Part shown: positions 1 to 10,300 of the stretch, piece by piece
Position numbering within the stretch: position 1 is the stretch's first letter
Layout of the letters: every line of letters begins with the position of its first letter
IMG/VR virus record: IMGVR_UViG_3300034082_002300
Location: 1-29,969 of that record
Source of the DNA: a virus
Direction: 5' to 3' (one strand)
DNA length: 29,969 bases
The notes under the pieces: model-generated
What the model saw: the letters and a program-made list of their open reading frames with translations, nothing else
Told to the model about the DNA's origin: nothing
Databases searched by the model: none
Translations under genes and position numbers: made by a program

Positions 1-136
1 CATGATCGCTCCATCGTTGCCAGCCCTTGAAATCAAAATTATTAAATCTATTACATTGTTCGCAAGTTAGATTGCAAACGTTGGTAATGTAAACTTCAAT
101 TTTGTTAAAAACAGTGCGGGCATTGTTAGGCGTCAT
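1..136 (-). CDS. Radical SAM enzyme, N-terminal fragment (runs off left edge)
   Basis: Only the first 45 codons are in the window. The frame starts at ATG 136-134 and stays open to base 1. The peptide begins MTPNNARTVFNKIEVYITNV and continues with CNLTCEQC (Cys21, Cys25, Cys28). That is the CX3CX2C motif that binds the 4Fe-4S cluster in radical SAM enzymes, placed after a hydrophobic beta strand as is usual for the first strand of the barrel. Enzymes of this family cleave S-adenosylmethionine to a 5'-deoxyadenosyl radical and use it for many chemistries. The substrate cannot be told from this fragment. The start is 9 bases after the stop of the 378-residue gene, and a GGAG (142-139) lies only 2 bases before the ATG, so the gene is probably co-transcribed with it. 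Seen: the motif. Known: the family. Unknown: the reaction. Confidence 0.75.
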   Translation of the reverse strand, partial: MTPNNARTVFNKIEVYITNVCNLTCEQCNRFNNFDFKGWQRWSDH

Positions 137-145
137 TGCTCCTAT

Positions 146-1282
146 TTACCAACTCTTTAGTATGATCAAGTTTTCTGTGCCACGGGCATTCCATGCAGTT
201 TCTGTGGCTTTGATGTCCTTGAACGCTTTGCGGGCGGCTGGTTTGCCTGCACCTGTAATGCCTTTCAGCTGTTCTGCTGGCTTGCGCAGAGTCTTTTGTA
301 CTGTATCCACAGTTGAGTAGCCAATGATTGAGTTGTTCTTTACAGTGAATGACTGTGTGTGGCTGTCTGCCACAAGGTGGATGAGCTTGCGTTTTTTGCT
401 GTCATACAACCAGGCTTCTGTTTTGTCCACAAGACTTGCGGCTGGCAATGATTTGAGTTTGAGTTCTGCAAACTCTACCTGCATCTTAAACTTGGCGGCC
501 CGCTTCTCCGGCGGCACTGCTTTGACCTTGCGCGGCTTGCGTTCCACTTTCTTGATCTGTACATAAGCACCGCAGTCGTTGACCACTGCTTCACAAAACT
601 TGATCACATTACGCAATTGTATTTTGGAGAGATGACTGTAGCCTTCAACCAACTGGGGATCTTTGCCTTCTACCACATGCTCAAACTCTGTGAGCTTGCG
701 TTTCCAATTGTCTGTAATTTGACTGATCATTTGCGGTGCAATGTTTAGGCCACGCATGATTGTGACAGGCTTGAAGTCTGCTGTCATTTTGGCACCACTC
801 AGCAAGAACTCGTCAAACAAGCCTTCCAATTCGCCGTTGCACTCTGCTGTCTTTTCGCGCAGTCGGTCTTGGATGGTAATTCGTGGTGTGGTATCTTCCA
901 CCACTACTTCGGGCACAACTTCGTTTTGTTTGCTGTCCAGTATTTCTCGCAGTTGGTTTTCTAATTTGAGCTGTTCTGTATCTAACAGTTCCAATCCAAC
1001 CATGCTCATGCGACACAGCCAGCCTGTGGTCAGTCGAATTGCCGAATCCGGAATGCCCTTGAGCAACCGTACATCTGCCTTACGGTCATGTGTTTCCAGA
1101 TAGTTTACAATCATGTCCCGGGCATCTTTTTTGCCATAAAAATAATTGTACCAGGAGAATGCTTCACTCAATTTGGTTTTTCTGTATTCAGTGGGCTGGA
1201 TTTGCCAGGTGGGCTCTGTGCCCAGAATGTTGGTGTCGGAACTGCGGGGGTTTAGCAGTTTGATTTTGAATGTGGTGCTCAT
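146..1282 (-). CDS. Hypothetical protein, 378 residues
   Basis: I do not recognise a family I can name. The protein is soluble-looking, with no signal peptide or membrane segment. It has an acidic linker at about residues 118-135 (EVVPEVVVEDTT) and a strongly basic stretch at about residues 245-265 (KKVERKPRKVKAVPPEKRAA). It ends in a Lys/Arg-rich region (VQKTLRKPAEQLK, then KPAARKAFKDIKATE), so nucleic-acid contact is possible but unproven. The ATG at 1282 is supported by AAGGA ending 5 bases upstream. It lies 12 bases downstream of the 95-residue gene and 9 bases upstream of the radical SAM gene, so the three are probably one operon. I have an impression of similar C-terminal segments in other marine T4-like phages, which needs a search. 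Confidence 0.8.
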   Translation of the reverse strand: MSTTFKIKLLNPRSSDTNILGTEPTWQIQPTEYRKTKLSEAFSWYNYFYGKKDARDMIVNYLETHDRKADVRLLKGIPDSAIRLTTGWLCRMSMVGLELLDTEQLKLENQLREILDSKQNEVVPEVVVEDTTPRITIQDRLREKTAECNGELEGLFDEFLLSGAKMTADFKPVTIMRGLNIAPQMISQITDNWKRKLTEFEHVVEGKDPQLVEGYSHLSKIQLRNVIKFCEAVVNDCGAYVQIKKVERKPRKVKAVPPEKRAAKFKMQVEFAELKLKSLPAASLVDKTEAWLYDSKKRKLIHLVADSHTQSFTVKNNSIIGYSTVDTVQKTLRKPAEQLKGITGAGKPAARKAFKDIKATETAWNARGTENLIILKSW

Positions 1283-1294
1283 GTGTGTCCTTAC

Positions 1295-1582
1295 TTATGT
1301 TACAGGTAAATCTCGGCAGAGTTCAAACAATTGCGTGGCACGTTTGAGTTTAAAGTTTTTGTGGTTGTACATGTACTTTCTCTTGCGCTCTGCAATGTCC
1401 AGGGCCTCCATCAGACGCCATTTGGTGTCAAAGTCTGACTGCATCAAAATACGATTCATATCCACAATGTCCAGGCTGTACTCCACCCATTTTTCTGTGG
1501 CTTTTATTAGGTCATAGGGCACCACTGCTTTGGACTTGTTGGCAGTAGAGTACTTTGCAACAAAATTTGCTGCCTTTTGCAT
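1295..1582 (-). CDS. Hypothetical small protein, 95 residues
   Basis: The open frame extends upstream to 1786, but the real start is almost certainly ATG 1582. It has AGGAG at 1592-1588 with 5-base spacing, and a full sigma70-type promoter ends at 1610. The product starts MQKAANFVAKYSTANKSKAV and ends LFELCRDLPVT. It is mostly helical in appearance, rich in charged and aromatic residues (EKWVEYSLDIVDMNR, ERKRKYMYNHKNFK), with no membrane segment. The upstream extension would read through the promoter and has atypical composition, so I reject it. No family is recognised. It sits first in a probable operon with the 378-residue and radical SAM genes. Confidence 0.75.
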   Translation of the reverse strand: MQKAANFVAKYSTANKSKAVVPYDLIKATEKWVEYSLDIVDMNRILMQSDFDTKWRLMEALDIAERKRKYMYNHKNFKLKRATQLFELCRDLPVT

Positions 1583-1587
1583 ACGGG

Positions 1588-1592
1588 CTCCT
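1588..1592 (-). promoter_or_regulatory. Shine-Dalgarno site that fixes the start of the 95-residue gene
   Basis: Read on the minus strand this is AGGAG followed by CCCGT and then ATG. The 5-base spacing is near optimal, and it decides for the start at 1582 over upstream alternatives in the same frame. Confidence 0.75.
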
Positions 1593-1609
1593 GTAGTGAA
1601 CAAGTGTGT

Positions 1610-1638
1610 ATTATAGCAGATCGTGATTATTTGGTCAA
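1610..1638 (-). promoter_or_regulatory. Sigma70-type promoter for the 95-residue gene and downstream operon
   Basis: On the minus strand there is TTGACC (1638-1633), a 17-base spacer and TATAAT (1615-1610). The bases TGC immediately before the -10 box give an extended -10. The predicted start near 1603 leaves a leader of about 20 bases containing the AGGAG site. The -35/-10 pair is close to the E. coli consensus. It overlaps the 3' end of the 89-residue gene, whose stop is at 1629-1627. It has a close relative at 1903-1931. Confidence 0.8.
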
Positions 1639-1896
1639 CTGGGCAGAAAGTAGTACTAAAGTAAGATCTGATTCCCTGCGGAAGGAGACCCAGAATGGGC
1701 GGTTGGCGCGGCCGTTGTTTTTGCCAAAGTAAGCATGCCAATCGTTGGTGGGCATGTAGCCTCGGCCTCCCAGTTTGGTCTTGCATATTTGTTCAAAAGA
1801 TGTGCCTTCCCCCAGCCAACTATCACATCGCACAGCAATCACATGCCCGTGCTGTTTGTATTGGCGGAATCTGCGGTCCAGTTTAACTACTTTCAT
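1627..1896 (-). CDS. Hypothetical small protein, 89 residues
   Basis: The product starts MKVVKLDRRFRQYKQHGHVI and ends SDLTLVLLSAQLTK. It is basic in its N-terminal half, contains VRCDSW and NDWHAYFG, and has a strand-like C-terminus (PFWVSFRRESDLTLVLL), as expected of a small folded beta-rich protein. I do not recognise the family. The frame is open upstream to 1921, and a TTG at 1902 is possible. I prefer ATG 1896 because the promoter at 1903-1931 places the predicted +1 on the A of that ATG, which would make the mRNA leaderless. No Shine-Dalgarno sequence is visible. It is divergent from the gp14-like gene, with 55 bases between the two start codons. Confidence 0.65.
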   Translation of the reverse strand: MKVVKLDRRFRQYKQHGHVIAVRCDSWLGEGTSFEQICKTKLGGRGYMPTNDWHAYFGKNNGRANRPFWVSFRRESDLTLVLLSAQLTK

Positions 1897-1902
1897 GCCC
1901 AA

Positions 1903-1931
1903 AGTATAACAGGTTGTGAATTATTGGTCAA
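1903..1931 (-). promoter_or_regulatory. Sigma70-type promoter for the 89-residue gene
   Basis: On the minus strand there is TTGACC (1931-1926), a 17-base spacer and TATACT (1908-1903), with TGT before the -10 box (extended -10). Spacer bases are largely shared with the promoter at 1610-1638 (TAAT, CAC and CTG at matching places), so the two are copies of one phage promoter type. The -10 box ends only 6 bases before the ATG. Confidence 0.75.
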
Positions 1932-1937
1932 CCGGCC

Positions 1938-1945
1938 CATAAATA
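1938..1945 (+). promoter_or_regulatory. Candidate T4-late-type promoter box before the gp14-like gene
   Basis: The sequence CATAAATA differs at one base from the T4 late consensus TATAAATA. It ends 6 bases before the ATG at 1952, so a transcript from it would have almost no leader. It falls immediately beyond the divergent sigma70-type promoter. This is a candidate only, because short AT-rich matches are common. Confidence 0.45.
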
Positions 1946-1951
1946 TATGTT

Positions 1952-3310
1952 ATGCCACGTCTAAGTTTATACCGCCCAAATCGCACAAGAGACTACCAAT
2001 TTTTTGACCGCACCATCAGTGAAATGTACACTGTGGGCGGATTAGATATCTATGTTCACAAATATCTGGGCCCACAAACTGGGGGCGAGGACTCTGCGCT
2101 GTCGGGCAATGCTGATGCCACACAGCCCATTTATGATGAGCAAAGCCCCTTAAACATTCAAGACTTGCTGTTGCTGGAAAACAGAGACAGAGTGTATGCT
2201 CCAGATATCTATGTCATGCGCGGTGTGTATCGTGTGCAGGATGTGGACTTTGATCTAACACAATTTGGATTGTTTTTAAACTCAGATACCTTGTTTGTGA
2301 CCTTTCACTACAACGATATGATAGATACGTTTGGTCGCAAACTCATGAACGGTGATGTTATTGAAGTGCCAAACCTGAAAGATTATAATCCCCTAAATGC
2401 TGCCTTGCCATTAGCCTTGCCCAGATACTATGTGATCCAGGATGCTAACTTTGCGTCAGAAGGTTTCAGTCAAACTTGGTTGCCGCACTTGTGGCGCATC
2501 AAGGCCACACCACTGACCAATGCACAAGAATACAACAGCATACTAGACAAGCCGTTTGTGTCTGAATACATTTGGGATCCGGGTGATTTCTATCCTGGCG
2601 GTAGCATTGTGAATTACGGTGATGTGTATTATCGAGCCACGAGAAATGTGCCTGCTGGCACAGAAATTACAGATACAACTTATTGGTCTGAGTATACTCC
2701 GCCCACAATCTCTGACATGCAAAGTACCCGACCCAAAGATCAACAGATCAATGACGACATACTTGCACAGGCCAATGTGGAAGTTCCACTCAGTGGGTAC
2801 GATGTTGAAAAGTTCTATGTTGTGGCCACACTGGACGATGGCCAACCTGCCAATCCGACCAGCCTGAGCACAATTGACGGCACCACAGTGGATGGTACAC
2901 AGGGTGGCATGAACATCACTCCACGAGCAGATGGTTATACAGCAGGCTATCTAACTGGTGATGGTTTTGCTCCTAACGGCTTGCCTGTGACTCCAGGTGT
3001 GAGCTTTCCAGCCAATGCTGTGAGTGGCGATTACTGTTTGAGACTGGACTACAAACCCAACAGACTGTTTCGCTACAACGGAAGATCATGGATCAAGATC
3101 GAGGAAAAAGTGCGAACACAACTAGACAATGCCGCAACCAATCAAACACAACGCTCAGGTTTTGTGAACAATACATACACTACCAATACCACGGACTTGG
3201 GTGCTGTACCACAGCGTCAGAGTTTGAGTCAAGCTCTCAAACCCAAGGCAGACAATGGTGACCAAGGCGGCTTCTTGCCACCTAACCCACCACCACCTTA
3301 TTCAAGATAA
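1952..3310 (+). CDS. 14: Neck / head-completion protein, T4 gp14-like
   Basis: This is a virion neck protein; in T4, gp13 and gp14 seal the filled head and connect it to the tail. Residues 20-195 carry the pattern I associate with the gp14 family: GGLDIYVHKYLG, DLLLLENRDR, then DLTQFGLFLNSDTLFVTFHY, the GRKLMNGDVIEVP segment and an EGFSQTWLPHLWRIK segment. At 452 residues it is much longer than T4 gp14 (about 256). Two segments account for the difference. Residues about 205-250 resemble a chitin-binding/CBM5-12-type module (GGSIVNYGDVYYRA, then TYWSEY). Residues about 355-385 carry YCLRLDYKPNRLFRYNGRSW. The C-terminus is Pro-rich. It is followed 2 bases later by the gp15-like gene, as in T4 gene order. 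No gp13 gene is seen upstream, where the strand switches. The number 14 is assigned by resemblance. Confidence 0.7.
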   Translation: MPRLSLYRPNRTRDYQFFDRTISEMYTVGGLDIYVHKYLGPQTGGEDSALSGNADATQPIYDEQSPLNIQDLLLLENRDRVYAPDIYVMRGVYRVQDVDFDLTQFGLFLNSDTLFVTFHYNDMIDTFGRKLMNGDVIEVPNLKDYNPLNAALPLALPRYYVIQDANFASEGFSQTWLPHLWRIKATPLTNAQEYNSILDKPFVSEYIWDPGDFYPGGSIVNYGDVYYRATRNVPAGTEITDTTYWSEYTPPTISDMQSTRPKDQQINDDILAQANVEVPLSGYDVEKFYVVATLDDGQPANPTSLSTIDGTTVDGTQGGMNITPRADGYTAGYLTGDGFAPNGLPVTPGVSFPANAVSGDYCLRLDYKPNRLFRYNGRSWIKIEEKVRTQLDNAATNQTQRSGFVNNTYTTNTTDLGAVPQRQSLSQALKPKADNGDQGGFLPPNPPPPYSR

Positions 3311-3312
3311 AC

Positions 3313-4734
3313 ATGCAACAATTTTTTTACGACGCACAAATACGCAGGTTCCTACTGCAATTTACCAGAATCTTTTCAGGATTCCAAATTGAGTACGGCA
3401 ACGAAACTGACGGCGTAAACAAAGCCACCCTGTTGCGTGTGCCTGTGCGCTATGGTGATTCCAGTCGCAATGCACAGACCATCATTCAAGAAAACTCTGC
3501 CAGTGCATTGCCATCAACTCCCTTAATGACTTTTTACATCAACAATCTTGAATACGATCGACCAAGAATACAAGATCCCACTTTTGTGGACAGATTCTCA
3601 GTGCGCCAACGCACATACGACACTGCTACAGAATCATACGACACCACACAAGGCAATGCATTTACCATTGAACGACTGATGCCTGTGCCGTACAAGTTGA
3701 GTGTAACACTGGACATTTGGACATCAAACACCAATCAGAAATTGCAATTATTTGAACAGATTTTGACCCTGTTTAATCCTTCGTTAGAACTACAAAGTAC
3801 AGACAACTACATTGACTGGTCAAGTTTGAGTGTGATGTATTTGGATCAACTGAGTTGGAGTTCAAGAACTATTCCAATGGGCACAGAAAATCCCATTGAT
3901 ATTGCCAGCATCAAATTCTCCATGCCCATATGGATTTCATCTCCAGCCAAGATCAAGAAACTGGGTGTGGTGGAACGCATCATTGCCGGCATCTTTGACG
4001 CACAAGGTGACGCTGCTGATGCCATAACCAACAACGATCTGTTGCTGGGAACTCGTCCCATGTTCACACCGTGGGGTTACAAACTGGTTGTGATCAACAA
4101 TCAGATTCAAGTGCTGCCGGCTCGTACTGTGGTGCCCAATGGTGCTTATGCGGACTTAGATCCCACTGCTATTGTGGCAGATTCGCCATTGTTATGGCCT
4201 GCTGTGATTTCAGCGTATGGCGTGTTGCGTCCGGGTATCAGTCAGATTAGATTGAATCGTCCTGTTGAATCGCCGCCAGACAGTGACAGTCCACCCATTA
4301 TTGGCACCATTGTGATCAACCCTGATGATGATCGATTGGTCATATTCACTCCTGATGCAGACACAGCACCACAAAATACGCTGAATCCAATTGACGCTAT
4401 CATTGATCCGCTGATCAGTGGTCCAGGAGACGGATTGCCGTCACCTGTTACAGGTGTGCGTTACTTGTTGACCGAAAGCACTGGCAACTATGACAATGTG
4501 GCCAACCCTACTGCTTGGGCAGGCACAGCAGGACAGCCGTTGGTGGCGTCAGCCAATGACATCATTGAGTGGGATGGCGCACGTTGGCGTGTGTCATTTG
4601 TGAGTGCGGGAGAAACTGCGGTGCAGTATGTGACCAACATAACTACTGGTACACAATATGAATGGACTGGAGCAGAATGGACCAAAAGTTATCAAGGGGA
4701 ATACCCAGCAGGCACCTGGAGCCTAGTACTGTAA
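3313..4734 (+). CDS. 15: Tail sheath stabiliser / tail completion protein, T4 gp15-like
   Basis: T4 gp15 caps the head-proximal end of the tail tube and sheath and joins the tail to the neck. The first 225 residues match that family closely as I know it: FFYDAQIRRFLLQFTRIFSG at residues 4-23, a VPVRYGDSSR segment, then RLMPVPYKLSVTLDIWTSNT (121-140), LFEQILTLFNPSLELQ and FSMPIWISSPAKIKK (202-216). This gene is the best evidence for a contractile tail. T4 gp15 is about 270 residues and this protein has 473. The extra part, from about residue 240, is a Pro/Asp-rich region followed by two small Trp-containing modules (IIEWDGARWRVSF and YEWTGAEWTKSY), which look like surface add-on domains. It is coupled to the gp14-like gene, and its 3' end overlaps the Nudix start. 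Confidence 0.85.
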   Translation: MQQFFYDAQIRRFLLQFTRIFSGFQIEYGNETDGVNKATLLRVPVRYGDSSRNAQTIIQENSASALPSTPLMTFYINNLEYDRPRIQDPTFVDRFSVRQRTYDTATESYDTTQGNAFTIERLMPVPYKLSVTLDIWTSNTNQKLQLFEQILTLFNPSLELQSTDNYIDWSSLSVMYLDQLSWSSRTIPMGTENPIDIASIKFSMPIWISSPAKIKKLGVVERIIAGIFDAQGDAADAITNNDLLLGTRPMFTPWGYKLVVINNQIQVLPARTVVPNGAYADLDPTAIVADSPLLWPAVISAYGVLRPGISQIRLNRPVESPPDSDSPPIIGTIVINPDDDRLVIFTPDADTAPQNTLNPIDAIIDPLISGPGDGLPSPVTGVRYLLTESTGNYDNVANPTAWAGTAGQPLVASANDIIEWDGARWRVSFVSAGETAVQYVTNITTGTQYEWTGAEWTKSYQGEYPAGTWSLVL

Positions 4735-5156
4735 AAGCAGTGGGTGTATGGTTCCTGGCCCGTGACACTGGCCGTTATCTATATCTCTTAAGAAATGACG
4801 TCAAACATCCTGGCGCATGGGGATTACCTGGCGGCAAGGTAGAAGCAGGCGAAACGCTGTTGGGCGGAATGGAACGTGAATGCCAAGAGGAATTAGGCAG
4901 TTTTCCAGACTATCGTCGACTCATGCCACTAGAAAAATTCACATCAGCAGATGGTGTGTTTGAATATCACACCTGGGTTTGTGTGCTGGATCAAGAATTT
5001 CAGCCTGTGTTAAACGACGAACACATTGGCTATGCATGGATTGCTGTGGGCACATGGCCCAAGCCCATGCATCCTGGCTTGTGGAGCACACTAAACATTG
5101 ATAGTGTTCAACAAAAACTGGCTGCTGTGGAACGAGTAGAGTTGGCCAGTTTGTGA
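4677..5156 (+). CDS. Nudix hydrolase
   Basis: Nudix enzymes hydrolyse nucleoside diphosphates linked to another moiety (oxidised dNTPs, ADP-ribose, NAD, Ap4A, capped RNA). The Nudix box GX5EX7REUXEEXGU is present at residues 53-75: GKVEAGE, seven residues, then RECQEELGS. The metal-binding residues R67, E68, E71 and E72 are intact, and the lead-in HPGAWGLPGGK is typical. The frame is open from 4662, but I choose ATG 4677 (159 residues) because GGAG at 4669-4672 lies 4 bases before it. This start is inside the gp15-like gene (58-base overlap, different frame), suggesting translational coupling. The substrate cannot be told from sequence; house-cleaning or nucleotide-pool functions are the default for phage Nudix proteins. 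The gene ends 1 base from a convergent gene. Confidence 0.88.
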   Translation: MDQKLSRGIPSRHLEPSTVKAVGVWFLARDTGRYLYLLRNDVKHPGAWGLPGGKVEAGETLLGGMERECQEELGSFPDYRRLMPLEKFTSADGVFEYHTWVCVLDQEFQPVLNDEHIGYAWIAVGTWPKPMHPGLWSTLNIDSVQQKLAAVERVELASL

Positions 5157-5157
5157 C

Positions 5158-5430
5158 TTATGCGTTTTCCAAAGCGGTTATACGAGCGGTTAGTTGGGTG
5201 ATGAGTGCTTGTTGTTGTTCTAGTAAAGTTTGTAAACTAGAGACTTGGGGGTCAGTCTGATATACAGGGACGGGTGCTTCTAAAAAAGCAAGGTGATGGG
5301 CTACCAATTCGGGAATTTCAGTTTCACTGTTTGCACAAAAAACATTAAAGTTAATTTTTTCCCCCAAATGTTCCATTGAAATATTATATCCAAATGATTG
5401 GTCTTGAATCTTGTTGACAGTATATTCCAT
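5158..5430 (-). CDS. Small protein with C-terminal coiled coil, 90 residues
   Basis: No family is recognised. Residues 1-55 are a mixed globular segment (MEYTVNKIQDQSFGYNISME, later NFNVFCANSETEIPELVAHH). Residues about 63-89 form heptad-like helix (LQTLLEQQQALITQLTARIT), suggesting a short oligomerising coiled coil. AAGGA lies 6 bases before ATG 5430, and the gene starts 8 bases after the stop of the 652-residue fibre, so it is the last gene of the fibre module. Small coiled-coil proteins beside tail fibres can be accessory or assembly proteins, but that is position-based inference only. Its stop is one base from that of the Nudix gene. Confidence 0.75.
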   Translation of the reverse strand: MEYTVNKIQDQSFGYNISMEHLGEKINFNVFCANSETEIPELVAHHLAFLEAPVPVYQTDPQVSSLQTLLEQQQALITQLTARITALENA

Positions 5431-5438
5431 TTTTTTCC

Positions 5439-7397
5439 TTAAGCTGTATCCCTTGTTCGGACAAAGAAGAACCCAAATGTAGCAGTTCCACCATAATTAT
5501 TAGTCCAAGTATACCCACCAATACCACTGTTATAAGCAAAAGATCCAGCTTGAGCAATGACGTTTGAAACTACAGTTACTGCTCCGCCACCGCAAAGGTA
5601 CAATGTTATAGCTCCATTAAACCAATTATTCACTACTAGCATTCCTGACGCACTAGGAAAATCAACTGTGCCGCCGTTAGCAATACTGGTAGCTCCTCCA
5701 GTTACGTCAACTGTGTATTTACCAGGTGTTTGAGTAATTTTAAAGTTACCGTCATAAGTAAGGCGCATCCGCTCACCCCAGCCGCCGTTGTAGGTTTGGA
5801 AAGCAATATTGCCAGAAGCAGTTCTTGAGCCAATAACTCCTGTATTTTGGTTGGTCATTGAACCCAACCACAAGCCTGCCCCATTGCCTGAATCATCTTC
5901 AATTAGAGCAAAACCAAGTTTGGTGTTTGCGGTTCCTGCGCCTGTGCCAGATGCAATAACTTGAAGTTTCCCATCAGGAGCAGAACCCCCTGTTCTCCCA
6001 ACTTGAAGCACCCCGTCGGAGCTGATTCGCATATTTTCGGTAAATCCACCTACCCCGGTTATTGCTGACCATGCGCCGAATGTAAGCGCAGTGCCAGATT
6101 TAACGCCTACTGCTGAGTTTGCGCTTGAATGACCGCTCCATACGCCAACAAATTTTGAGTTATCAGAGTTGCTGGCAAAAATGTTTGTACCAGTGCTTGT
6201 ACTTGCTGATTGAATTAAAAACGCATATGACGCATCACTAAATTTACCAGTAGAAGGTGATGTAGTCCCAACACCCAAGTTACCGCCTTCATCAAGGTAC
6301 ATCATGGTTTGAGCATTTTGTCTTTCATAAAATCCAAGACCACCTGCTGACGCAGAATCAGCATAAATTTCCCAAGTGCCAGAGCCAGTTGTTGTTGAGC
6401 TAAGTCTTAATGCGGGTTTAAGTCCAGAAATCATCAAACCACCAGAGCCAGCGGTAAATGATGGCGAACTCGTCCCAATACCCAAATTTGTACCATCAAA
6501 AACCAGCGCAGTACCACTTGTTGCTACCTTGGAGTCATTGAGATATACCACACCATTGGCTGTGCCATAAGACAAAGTTTGATTAGATGTGAAAGTGGCA
6601 TTGTTTGCACTGATGTTGCCGGCTGCTGATATCAACCCACCTGTTAAGATATTGCCGCCGGTTACGTTGCCAGTTACGCTGGCTGCACCACTTACGTTGG
6701 CACCATTGCTAACTACCCAGATGTTGCCGGTGCTGTTGTAGGTGATACTTGCATACTGTGCGCCAGCTGGGCCAACTTCAATACCACCTCCATTAGCAGC
6801 GGCGGCAGTGGCTGCATTGTTGGCCATGTTAATGGTCAAGTCATTTGTGGTAACGTTGTTGGAGTTGATATATGTTACATTACCAGTAACACTCAAATTA
6901 CCTTGAATGAAAACTGCGCCACTTGATCCTGCAGAAGCAGGATCAATTGTGATTATACTATCAGTTGAGCTGATTGTGTTGCCGGTTAACGACAATGTAC
7001 CAGCTGTTAATCCAGTAGTTGCAATTACGTTACCGCCAGCAATATTACCGGTTGCGGAGATCAATCCACCTGTTAGGATATTGCCACTGGTTGTGTTGGC
7101 TGTAACAGTTAAACTGCCTAATGTGCCAACACTTGTGATGTTTGTTTGTGCGGCTGTGGTCAATGTGCCCACAATGTTGGTACCTGACAAGTTGCCACCC
7201 AATACATTGCCAGTGGCACTAATCACGCCAGTGGCCAATACATTGCCACTGTTCACATTGTCACTCACGTTGATACTCACAAACGTATTGCTGACAGATG
7301 TGCTCACCGTCCATGCTGTGGCCGCACTGCTGTAAGTATAAGTTATACCATTAATGTTGGCTTGCTGACCATTAGTTGGTGATGTTGGAAATGCCAT
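5439..7397 (-). CDS. Tail-fibre-like structural protein, 652 residues
   Basis: The N-terminus (MAFPTSPTNGQQANINGITY) is shared in type with the next two upstream fibres and probably anchors the fibre to a common site. Residues about 40-265 are Gly/Asn/Thr-rich solenoid repeats (TGNVLGGN, ILTGGLISATGNI). From about residue 280 the sequence is different. It has LGIGTSSP and LGVGTTSP motifs typical of phage fibre domains, two MR-S/T-DG strands (ENMRISSDGV and ERMRLTYDGN), and a glycine/aromatic-rich C-terminus (WTNNYGGTATFGFFFVRTRD) that may be the receptor-contacting tip. The gene starts at TAATG, overlapping the stop of the 1288-residue fibre by one base, with AGGA 8 bases upstream, so it is translationally coupled. 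The fibre role is inferred from repeats and context. Confidence 0.8.
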   Translation of the reverse strand: MAFPTSPTNGQQANINGITYTYSSAATAWTVSTSVSNTFVSINVSDNVNSGNVLATGVISATGNVLGGNLSGTNIVGTLTTAAQTNITSVGTLGSLTVTANTTSGNILTGGLISATGNIAGGNVIATTGLTAGTLSLTGNTISSTDSIITIDPASAGSSGAVFIQGNLSVTGNVTYINSNNVTTNDLTINMANNAATAAAANGGGIEVGPAGAQYASITYNSTGNIWVVSNGANVSGAASVTGNVTGGNILTGGLISAAGNISANNATFTSNQTLSYGTANGVVYLNDSKVATSGTALVFDGTNLGIGTSSPSFTAGSGGLMISGLKPALRLSSTTTGSGTWEIYADSASAGGLGFYERQNAQTMMYLDEGGNLGVGTTSPSTGKFSDASYAFLIQSASTSTGTNIFASNSDNSKFVGVWSGHSSANSAVGVKSGTALTFGAWSAITGVGGFTENMRISSDGVLQVGRTGGSAPDGKLQVIASGTGAGTANTKLGFALIEDDSGNGAGLWLGSMTNQNTGVIGSRTASGNIAFQTYNGGWGERMRLTYDGNFKITQTPGKYTVDVTGGATSIANGGTVDFPSASGMLVVNNWFNGAITLYLCGGGAVTVVSNVIAQAGSFAYNSGIGGYTWTNNYGGTATFGFFFVRTRDTA

Positions 7398-7399
7398 TA
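7395..7399 (-). promoter_or_regulatory. TAATG stop/start overlap coupling two fibre genes
   Basis: On the minus strand the TAA of the 1288-residue fibre gene shares its last A with the ATG of the 652-residue gene. AGGA lies 8 bases upstream of the ATG. This arrangement usually means reinitiating or coupled translation, giving related amounts of both fibres. Confidence 0.75.
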
Positions 7400-10300
7400 T
7401 AATCTTCCTACTGCAATTTCAATTGTGCCAGATGCGCCAACAAAGTCTTCAACTGCTTTGCCAATCACTGTGCCCATGGCCGGTGTGGCACATGCCTGTG
7501 CATGACCATTACCTGCTGACACCATCATATCGCCTTTGCGTACAGGTCCGATCACCAGGGTTGGAACTCGGCCAGACAGTGCCACGGCTGCTGTGTGCGT
7601 GGATTCCAAAGTGGAATTCATCAAGTGAGCCGGATTTGTAGATACCACACCGGCTATTCTATTACTTCCGGATTCCACACTCAATGTTATTTCGCATGTG
7701 CCACCAAAATCTACCACTGTGCCTGGTGGATATTCGGCATCAGCGGAATACAATTCTGCCAAGTCAGCATATTTGGCTGTAGTTGATACACCACTAAAAG
7801 TAGCAGCATAAACAATACTACTATCTGAATCTAAGAAAATTCTTGAGACTCCAGCCGAAGCAACATACATTCCCCAACGATTTACTGGTACACCTGAACT
7901 ACCGCCAACGTTGGCAGTTTGTCCTGAATATCCATAGCCTATGCCGTACATGTTATTGAGACTGGTGGCTAAAGGAACATAAGAGCCGCCAATAGAATAA
8001 ATTGCTCCTGATGTACTAATTGTCTCAATGGAATTATAATTTCCATTGAGATATCCCGTTCCGGCTGCGGTACGAGTAATAGCCCCGCCTACACTGGTAA
8101 CACCAGAAATTGTCACACTACTCAATGTACCAACTGATGTAATATTTGGTTGGGCTGCTGTGGTTACTGTACTAGCTGTGGTTGAGCTGCCTGCACTCGT
8201 TGCATAAGTTGCATTGGCCACAGTGCCTGACACATTGGCGCCTGGTATTGACGTTAATCCAGCACCTGATCCATTGAATTGACTACCAGTTACTGTGCCA
8301 GTTGCCGAAATCAATCCGGCTGTTCGTAAGTTACCACCAGTTATATTGCCGGTAGCTGATATAATACCACCAGTTAAGATGTTACCACCAGTTATGTTGG
8401 CTGTTACAGTAACGGTATTGGCAGAAATTACATTGGCACCAGTTAAGTTACCACCCGATCCTGCTCCTGTAATAATATTGCCGCCAGTGATGTTGCCACT
8501 AGCAGAAATCAATCCATTGACAAATACATTTGCATTTGAATAAACATTACCACTGCCATTGGGTGTGAAATTGATGTTGGCATTTGCCGCAGAAGTTTGT
8601 AGATCTAAATTGCCTGTGTTGTCAACGATGCCGCCACTGAGAACAAGATTGCCACCGGTTATGTTACCAGTTGCAGATATCAATCCGCCGGTTAAGATGT
8701 TGCCGCCAGTTATGTTAGCTGTAACTGATACAGTTGTGCCAGTATGTGTTGTGGCATTGACATTTGCACCACCCAAGATGTTACCGCCAGTGATGTTGCC
8801 AGTTGCAGATATCACACCACCTGTGAGTAAATTACCGCTAGTGGTATTGGCGGTGACTGTTAATGAACCTAATGTACCAAGTGCGGTAATGTTTGTTTGT
8901 GAGGCTGTGGTCAGTGTACCCACAATGCTAGTGCCTGATAAATTACCACCTGTGATGTTGCCAGTAGAACTTATTAGTCCACCTGTTAGGACGTTACCAC
9001 CTGTTACGTTACCTGTTACTAATAAACTACCCAATGTACCAACCGAAGTCACTTGTGTTTGACTTGCATTTACACTAAACGTGGTGCCAGTAAGTGTAAG
9101 GCCAGTCCCAGCACTATATGTGCCAGATCCTGAAAACTGTGTAAATGTTATGTTATTGCCAGCGAATCCAATATTTGATACAGTAGAAGTTTGAATCCAT
9201 CCGGTGTTGCCGTATGTGGCACCATTGGTAACAAACATAAAGTCGCCAGCTTCAACTTCGGGCACAGTGTTGTAATCACTTGCACGAGTAATTGCTGTGG
9301 CATTGCTCCAAACATACACACCATTGGTCACTGCATTGGCTTCATTCAGCACTAGAATTCTAGTGCCTGCTGTTTGCACATTCACTGTGTCAATCAAGTT
9401 GAATGTGCCGGTTGTGCTCAGTGTAGCACCAACGCCATTGGATCCTGGACCATTGTAATAGGTAATTGTTCCGCTAGTGATAGTGGCCAGCGTGGTTGGA
9501 GTAGCAGCCGTTACAGCATCATGTACATTAAGTCCGGTAACAAAATTATCAACATACAGTTTGTTTACAGCATCACCATCAGCTACCGGAGTAGGTACGT
9601 TGTTGATGTATTCGTTGTTGACATTGATGTTACCAGTTGCGCTGAGTGTTAGATCACCAGTAGATACTAGTGTTAATCCGGTGCCAACCACTTGGTTGGT
9701 GTTGACATTGCCACCTGTGATATTGCCTGTGGCATTAATCAACCCACCAGTTAGTAAATTACCACCTGTTACGTTTGCCGTTACTGATACAGTAGTACCT
9801 GTATGTGTAGTAGCATTAACATTGGCTCCACCCAATACGTTACCACCAGTGATATTACCAGTTGCGGATATCACACCACCAGCTAAAATATTGTCGCCGG
9901 TAATGTTGCCCGATACGCTGACTGTGTTGCCAGTAATAGACGGTGTGGCACCTTGTAAAACAGTATTTCCACCTGCAGGATTGGTAATAGTTACAGCCGT
10001 GGCATTAGCACTAATCTGAGCATTTCCCAAATATATTGTGCTGTTACTCAGCCACAAGTCTTTCCAACGCTGTGTTGATGTTCCCAAATCATATGTGACG
10101 TTGGCGCTGGGCAACACATTGCCTTTTATAGTCACTGCATCAGTGCTGACCACAGCTACGTTTGAAGTTCCGCCTACGCCTACAGAAATATTGCCGCCTG
10201 AACTCACAACAGTGACGTTTGATGTGCCGTTGTTGATGTTTGATACTGATGTGATCACACCAGTCAACAATGCACCATTACCAAAAATGTAATTACCAGT

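Follow-up and report, generated by a model that had tools for sequence, protein, structure and literature searches.

The window analysed here is the whole of IMG/VR record IMGVR_UViG_3300034082_002300 (G000; 29,969 bases) and it begins inside a minus-strand gene, whose truncation, as the record is complete, is due to the contig end. The following features were assigned at this edge of the window and in the adjoining genes:

2-136, minus: the first 45 of 299 codons of a radical SAM gene of the Twitch type, assigned from its continuation in identical contigs and from PF04055 on the full protein
53-76, minus: CX3CX2C (C21, C25, C28), predicted to ligate the radical SAM [4Fe-4S] cluster
139-143, minus: AGGAG, a putative ribosome-binding-like sequence 5' of the ATG
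146-1282, minus: 378-aa phage protein, phrog_11903 (E=6.9e-59; unplaced), in conserved order and forming one border of the slot described below
1295-1639, minus: 114-aa conserved gene of the same strand block, recurring upstream of phrog_11903 in relatives; no Pfam or PHROG family
1627-1902, minus: 91-aa ORF with a TTG start, recurring in relatives; no Pfam or PHROG family
1952-3310, plus: virion structural protein, phrog_11591 (E=2.3e-82), divergent from the radical SAM block
3313-4734, plus: T4 gp15-like tail sheath stabiliser (PF16724, E=3e-23; phrog_11196/227)

A NUDIX hydrolase ORF that is conserved in relatives (window 4662-5156) overlaps, in a different frame, the last part of the gp15-like gene, and about 24 kb of the window (5439-29969) is taken up by minus-strand ORFs of fibre-like character, up to 2445 aa long and built of SATGNITGGN-type repeats.

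The minus-strand frame from window position 136 to 2 reads MTPNNARTVFNKIEVYITNVCNLTCEQCNRFNNFDFKGWQRWSDH and runs off the end of the contig without a stop. The motif CNLTCEQC, which the sequence-only reading had noted 21 residues from the start of this frame, is present there (window 76 to 53, minus strand). Counted over all six frames, the window contains 22 copies of the CX3CX2C pattern, most of them antisense to the repeat-rich fibre genes, so that the motif alone is no proof of a radical SAM enzyme and it is the continuation that makes the gene real. The 45-aa fragment by itself gave no Pfam match, no GenBank phage match and only a PHROG match at E=0.29; its sole PDB match, interleukin-18-binding protein (E=0.29), was dismissed as chance. 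The 48-residue edge stretch was found with 100% identity in seven other viral contigs and in diverged versions in more. Window 1-8145 is 100% identical to contigs L004, L005 and L006, window 1-3966 to L002 and window 1-6220 to L007, and these five contigs extend past window base 1. Extension from the identical contigs yielded an uninterrupted 299-aa ORF, which occupies 8010-8909 of L004, and the stop near base 1 that would have ended the frame was looked for and not found.

The full protein scored 45.9 bits with PF04055 (E=8.8e-12; gathering score 29.5), the radical SAM domain that had been expected of it, and five diverse relatives also passed this cut-off. PF13353 scored 23.2 against a cut-off of 22, and Radical_SAM and Fer4_12 were the only Pfam families at cut-off in the 299 aa; PHROG matches covered the general radical SAM core only. 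An AF2 model (pLDDT 91, pTM 0.89) matched radical SAM structures, in agreement with the partial TIM barrel and SAM-binding GGEP motif of this superfamily. The edge fragment is thereby confirmed as the start of a real 299-aa phage radical SAM protein, and PF04055, the AF2 model and the T4-like neighbourhood agree with its original description as a phage-encoded radical SAM enzyme. When 28 diverse relatives were aligned (A1), C21, C25, C28, GGEP at 65-68, C205, C223, C277 and C280 were invariant. In the wider set of 106 sequences GGEP was kept in all, C21/C25/C28 in 105 with a gap in the remaining sequence, and each of the seven cysteines in 105 or 106, with gaps as the only exceptions. C21, C25 and C28 are predicted to hold one SAM-binding [4Fe-4S] cluster, and H126, D164, K222 and Y251, also invariant in A1, are candidate substrate-binding or catalytic residues. 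Family pairs with unsaturated dS gave dN/dS values of 0.06-0.13; judged from the sequences, the family is under purifying selection with its function kept.

A profile-guided scan detected relatives in at least 380 viral stretches, on contigs of up to approximately 347 kb. Among GenBank phages there were three matches, of which only that in S-SCSM2R covers most of the protein. One of nine matches in the genome collection resembles the family (47%), the other eight sharing the general core only. This match lies on L130, a contig of 3.4 kb from a Legionella MAG, and is accompanied there by adaptor, exonuclease, dNMP kinase and HNH genes, for which reason L130 is probably a phage contig binned with its host. 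In the collections searched, the family is widespread, conserved and almost confined to uncultured phages.

The gene order around the family runs from gp15 and phrog_11591 (opposite strand) through phrog_11903, radical SAM, Ad2 (phrog_211), exonuclease, dNMP kinase and HNH (opposite strand) to the tail sheath, the last named from size, position and sequence rather than from a family scan. Going by the gp15 (PF16724), head-tail adaptor (Ad2) and dNMP kinase genes, the neighbourhood is that of a T4-like phage. The sequence-only reading had placed the enzyme beside proteins that it could not assign; the phrog_11591 virion protein and the gp15-like protein are now placed, and the 378-aa, 114-aa and 91-aa genes stay unplaced. 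An AF2 model of the phrog_11903 protein reached a pTM of 0.36, and Foldseek gave no significant fold match for it (best E 0.62).

The radical SAM gene was analysed at 118 unique loci having both slot borders, phrog_11903 and Ad2. One copy was found in 80 of them, two in tandem in 4 and none in 34; at 33 of these 34 the borders abut (-51 to +12 bp), and the gap at the remaining locus, L071, is 671 bp. Such abutting borders and the many loci devoid of the gene indicate that it is optional cargo of a fixed slot. When loci were sampled by phrog_11903 alone, 19 of 53 had a radical SAM gene, and a strict functional link between the two was rejected as the other 34 did without it. Tandem pairs, adjacent or approximately 640 bp apart in the slot, were seen at L021, L022/L092, L035/L173, L046 and L047/L048. 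At 41 loci the slot also holds a GDSL/SGNH hydrolase as partner of the radical SAM gene, and at 23 loci an unplaced 386-aa frame; the two partners never occur together, and no reliable match was found for the 386-aa frame. Two examples are:

L065, 9971-10726: slot partner, between the radical SAM and head-tail adaptor genes
L012, 2396-3553: slot partner, between the radical SAM and head-tail adaptor genes

The window's own lineage has the radical SAM gene and no slot partner.

The part of the protein beyond the core was searched for auxiliary domains such as SPASM or B12, as had been proposed. Neither was recovered in the 299-aa protein: no B12 domain matched, and in place of the seven-Cys SPASM motif for two auxiliary clusters only four invariant C-terminal cysteines are present. 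These are arranged as C205-x12-G218-x4-C223 followed by C277-x2-C280, the truncated SPASM pattern called Twitch. The C-x17-C spacing of C205 and C223, with a glycine five residues before the second cysteine, agrees with CX9-15GX4C, with which the SPASM/Twitch motif begins, and G218 is replaced by alanine in 25 of 106 relatives. On sequence, the protein has the Twitch motif (C-x9-15-G-x4-C plus a further Cys pair), with C205, C223, C277 and C280 predicted to bind and fully ligate one auxiliary [4Fe-4S] cluster. The Twitch domain of BtrN likewise binds one [4Fe-4S] cluster that is fully ligated by four cysteines (PMC6231123).

The cysteine pattern bears on the possibility that the enzyme has a nucleotide, a nucleoside or RNA as its substrate, in the manner of MoaA, QueE or viperin, for example against host defence or in DNA or tRNA modification. 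Its N-terminal core does resemble the viperin, MoaA and QueE models (E 1e-10 to 1e-8), but over approximately 90-135 residues of common core only and at 34-39 bits against cut-offs of 180-284. The individual scores were 39 bits for prokaryotic viperin (NF038283; cut-off 180), the best of the NCBIfam equivalogs, 34.7 for MoaA (TIGR02666; cut-off 284) and 33.8 for QueE (TIGR03963; cut-off 260), and no equivalog came near its cut-off in the NCBIfam scan of the full protein. N_Twi_rSAM (NF033640) was rejected as well (29.4 bits; cut-off 170). Moreover, one site of the Twitch cluster is left open in MoaA (PMC6231123), in contrast to the four invariant cysteines of the phage family, and by fold SpeY is a far better match than either MoaA or viperin. 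Action on a nucleotide is considered improbable, and the tRNA or nucleotide modification and antiviral nucleotide chemistry first listed for the gene are not supported.

Searches with the AF2 model and with sequence profiles instead converged on one Twitch dehydrogenase. Foldseek returned SpeY first (E=1.3e-12, TM 0.65, approximately full length), five orders of magnitude ahead of the next different protein, MoaA (4.5e-7), whose superposition is poor (rmsd 14.6), and the AF2 model has the overall fold of the SpeY type. The A1 profile likewise placed SpeY first among PDB sequences (1.1e-8; next 2.4e-5), and SpeY was also the top match for the homologues L217, L129 and L211. These searches bring the protein closest to bacterial enzymes by which alcohol groups on the sugars of antibiotics are oxidised. 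As SpeY leads by both fold and sequence profile and the four-Cys Twitch pattern is present, the favoured reading is that of a phage-borne Twitch enzyme which may oxidise an alcohol group of a sugar-like or cyclitol-like substrate; we put its probability at about 0.45, slightly short of even odds. In this reaction a 5'-deoxyadenosyl radical would take a hydrogen from the C-H next to the alcohol group of a small substrate resembling a sugar or cyclitol; the electron would pass to the auxiliary cluster and a ketone would result, by analogy with SpeY and BtrN. Its product might conceivably serve to modify a glycan or a small molecule that is made in the course of infection. Both the kind of substrate and what the phage would gain are guesswork in this scheme; the sugar or cyclitol is suggested by the DegT and amidinotransferase context of two distant homologues (S-SCSM2R and L217). 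Against the dehydrogenase reading it counts that identity to SpeY is 18% at a TM of 0.65, that the DegT/amidinotransferase context belongs to distant homologues and is absent from the slot subfamily, that the gene stands alone in the slot in the window's own lineage, and that function does not follow the sequence clusters of Twitch/SPASM proteins (PMC6231123).

Radical chemistry on a sugar or glycan need not be oxidation, and epimerisation, deoxygenation or ring rearrangement would suit the GDSL/SGNH hydrolase partner found at 41 loci. The epimerase EpeE as well as AbmM and BlsE are among the Foldseek matches, but they are weaker than SpeY by at least 7 orders of magnitude. All seven invariant cysteines look like cluster ligands, and no eighth that could serve as hydrogen donor was seen in the alignment of relatives, which makes these alternatives unlikely. 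The target could also be a peptide, or a protein of the phage or its host, as for anSME or RiPP maturases, and the fixed position beside virion genes, at a neck/tail site, would then suggest a virion protein; anSME, SuiB and SkfB do occur among the weaker fold matches. However, no peptide-binding domain accompanies the two Pfam families in the 299 aa, the cysteines suffice for one auxiliary cluster only, and no conserved precursor peptide was seen adjoining the gene. The NCBIfam RiPP maturase models scored far under cut-off, and the same genomes have paralogues at other sites, near iscU or within enzyme clusters. A peptide or protein substrate is thus held to be doubtful, and oxidation of a sugar-like alcohol stays the preferred reading.

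Some family members outside the slot were found close to iscU-iscA, either immediately upstream of it or a few genes further upstream (L036, L172, L179, L200 and L212). Others (L037 and L211) lie in enzyme clusters with a DegT aminotransferase, an AMP-ligase, SGNH-like and further radical SAM genes; off-slot assignments beyond DegT, AMP-binding, NifU_N and Fe-S_biosyn were made by reading the sequences rather than by family match. Three full-length members occur in one 347-kb contig (G022). The distant member L217:3702-8005, on a 353-kb phage contig (G017), lies between a DegT aminotransferase (PF01041, 1e-12) and an amidinotransferase, for which the PDB matches were HsvA (3.8e-9) and inosamine-phosphate amidinotransferase (2e-4). 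DegT lies near the L037 member as well. In the tree the distant off-slot members are on long branches and their placement is unsure. The L217 amidinotransferase is HsvA/StrB1-like and the arrangement recalls the S-SCSM2R cluster, which is annotated with a DegT-type synthase, radical SAM, glycosyltransferases and an inosamine amidinotransferase. At L051:4153-13225 a radical SAM gene was observed with sulfotransferase-, tryptophan-halogenase-, desaturase- and AdoMet-decarboxylase-like genes, which were recognised by eye.

IscU (NifU_N) was detected in all nine contigs longer than 200 kb (G002, G005, G008, G010, G015, G017, G018, G022 and G024). An iscA-like gene follows iscU or lies close behind it in L212, L214, L215, L216 and L218, all from contigs of more than 200 kb, and in L200; the iscU/iscA domain check covered L212. 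The radical SAM gene sometimes adjoins the iscU regions (L212:7407-8100, L036:9119-9800 and L200:8941-10648). A strict link between the two was rejected, as iscU also occurs in G015, which has no family match, and in G017, which has a distant match only; with two of the nine iscU contigs lacking a close radical SAM family member, the link is loose. Several SpeY-like paralogues per genome, sets of aminotransferases and amidinotransferases in some of the genomes and an IscU-IscA supply of Fe-S clusters might together mean that large T4-like phages, while infecting, run their own radical sugar or cyclitol chemistry and make an aminocyclitol-like decoration or small molecule of their own, an idea that we regard as speculative and rather unlikely.

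Radical SAM genes and viral genes for IscU and A-type carriers were already known from phages (PMC5332604). New here are a specific and widespread family, its dehydrogenase-like Twitch fold as predicted by the model, and a fixed cargo slot beside neck genes. If a sugar-like alcohol is indeed oxidised, a gene annotated merely as a radical SAM domain would gain a testable enzyme activity, and the Fe-S assembly genes of these phages would gain a reason.

Among known systems, SpeY (PDB 7WZV/7WZX/7X0B) is a Twitch radical SAM dehydrogenase and a remote whole-fold match, and the first half of its Twitch Cys motif aligns with the phage protein; unlike SpeY, the protein studied here is phage-encoded and has no spectinomycin-type pathway alongside. 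BtrN, the Twitch dehydrogenase of butirosin synthesis, belongs to the same Twitch class with a fully ligated four-Cys auxiliary cluster, like the one predicted here, and is in the fold list (4m7s), but its match is weak (E=0.012). The protein A0A6J5QVW3 (Radical_SAM domain protein, uncultured Caudovirales phage) is 47% identical with a TM of 0.91, belongs to the same family and was deposited without a function. The radical SAM superfamily maturase of Synechococcus phage S-SCSM2R (PQ898602.1) is 26.5% identical to the 299-aa protein, keeps all seven cysteines, lies in a glycosyltransferase/aminocyclitol-like cluster and also has SpeY as its best PDB match (5.7e-7). At the level of whole genomes, the environmental phage TARA_ERS488813_N000010 carries 12 radical SAM genes together with a gene for an Fe-S carrier (PMC5332604); like the phages described here it is large, T4-like and rich in radical SAM and Fe-S assembly genes, and it differs from them in being marine.
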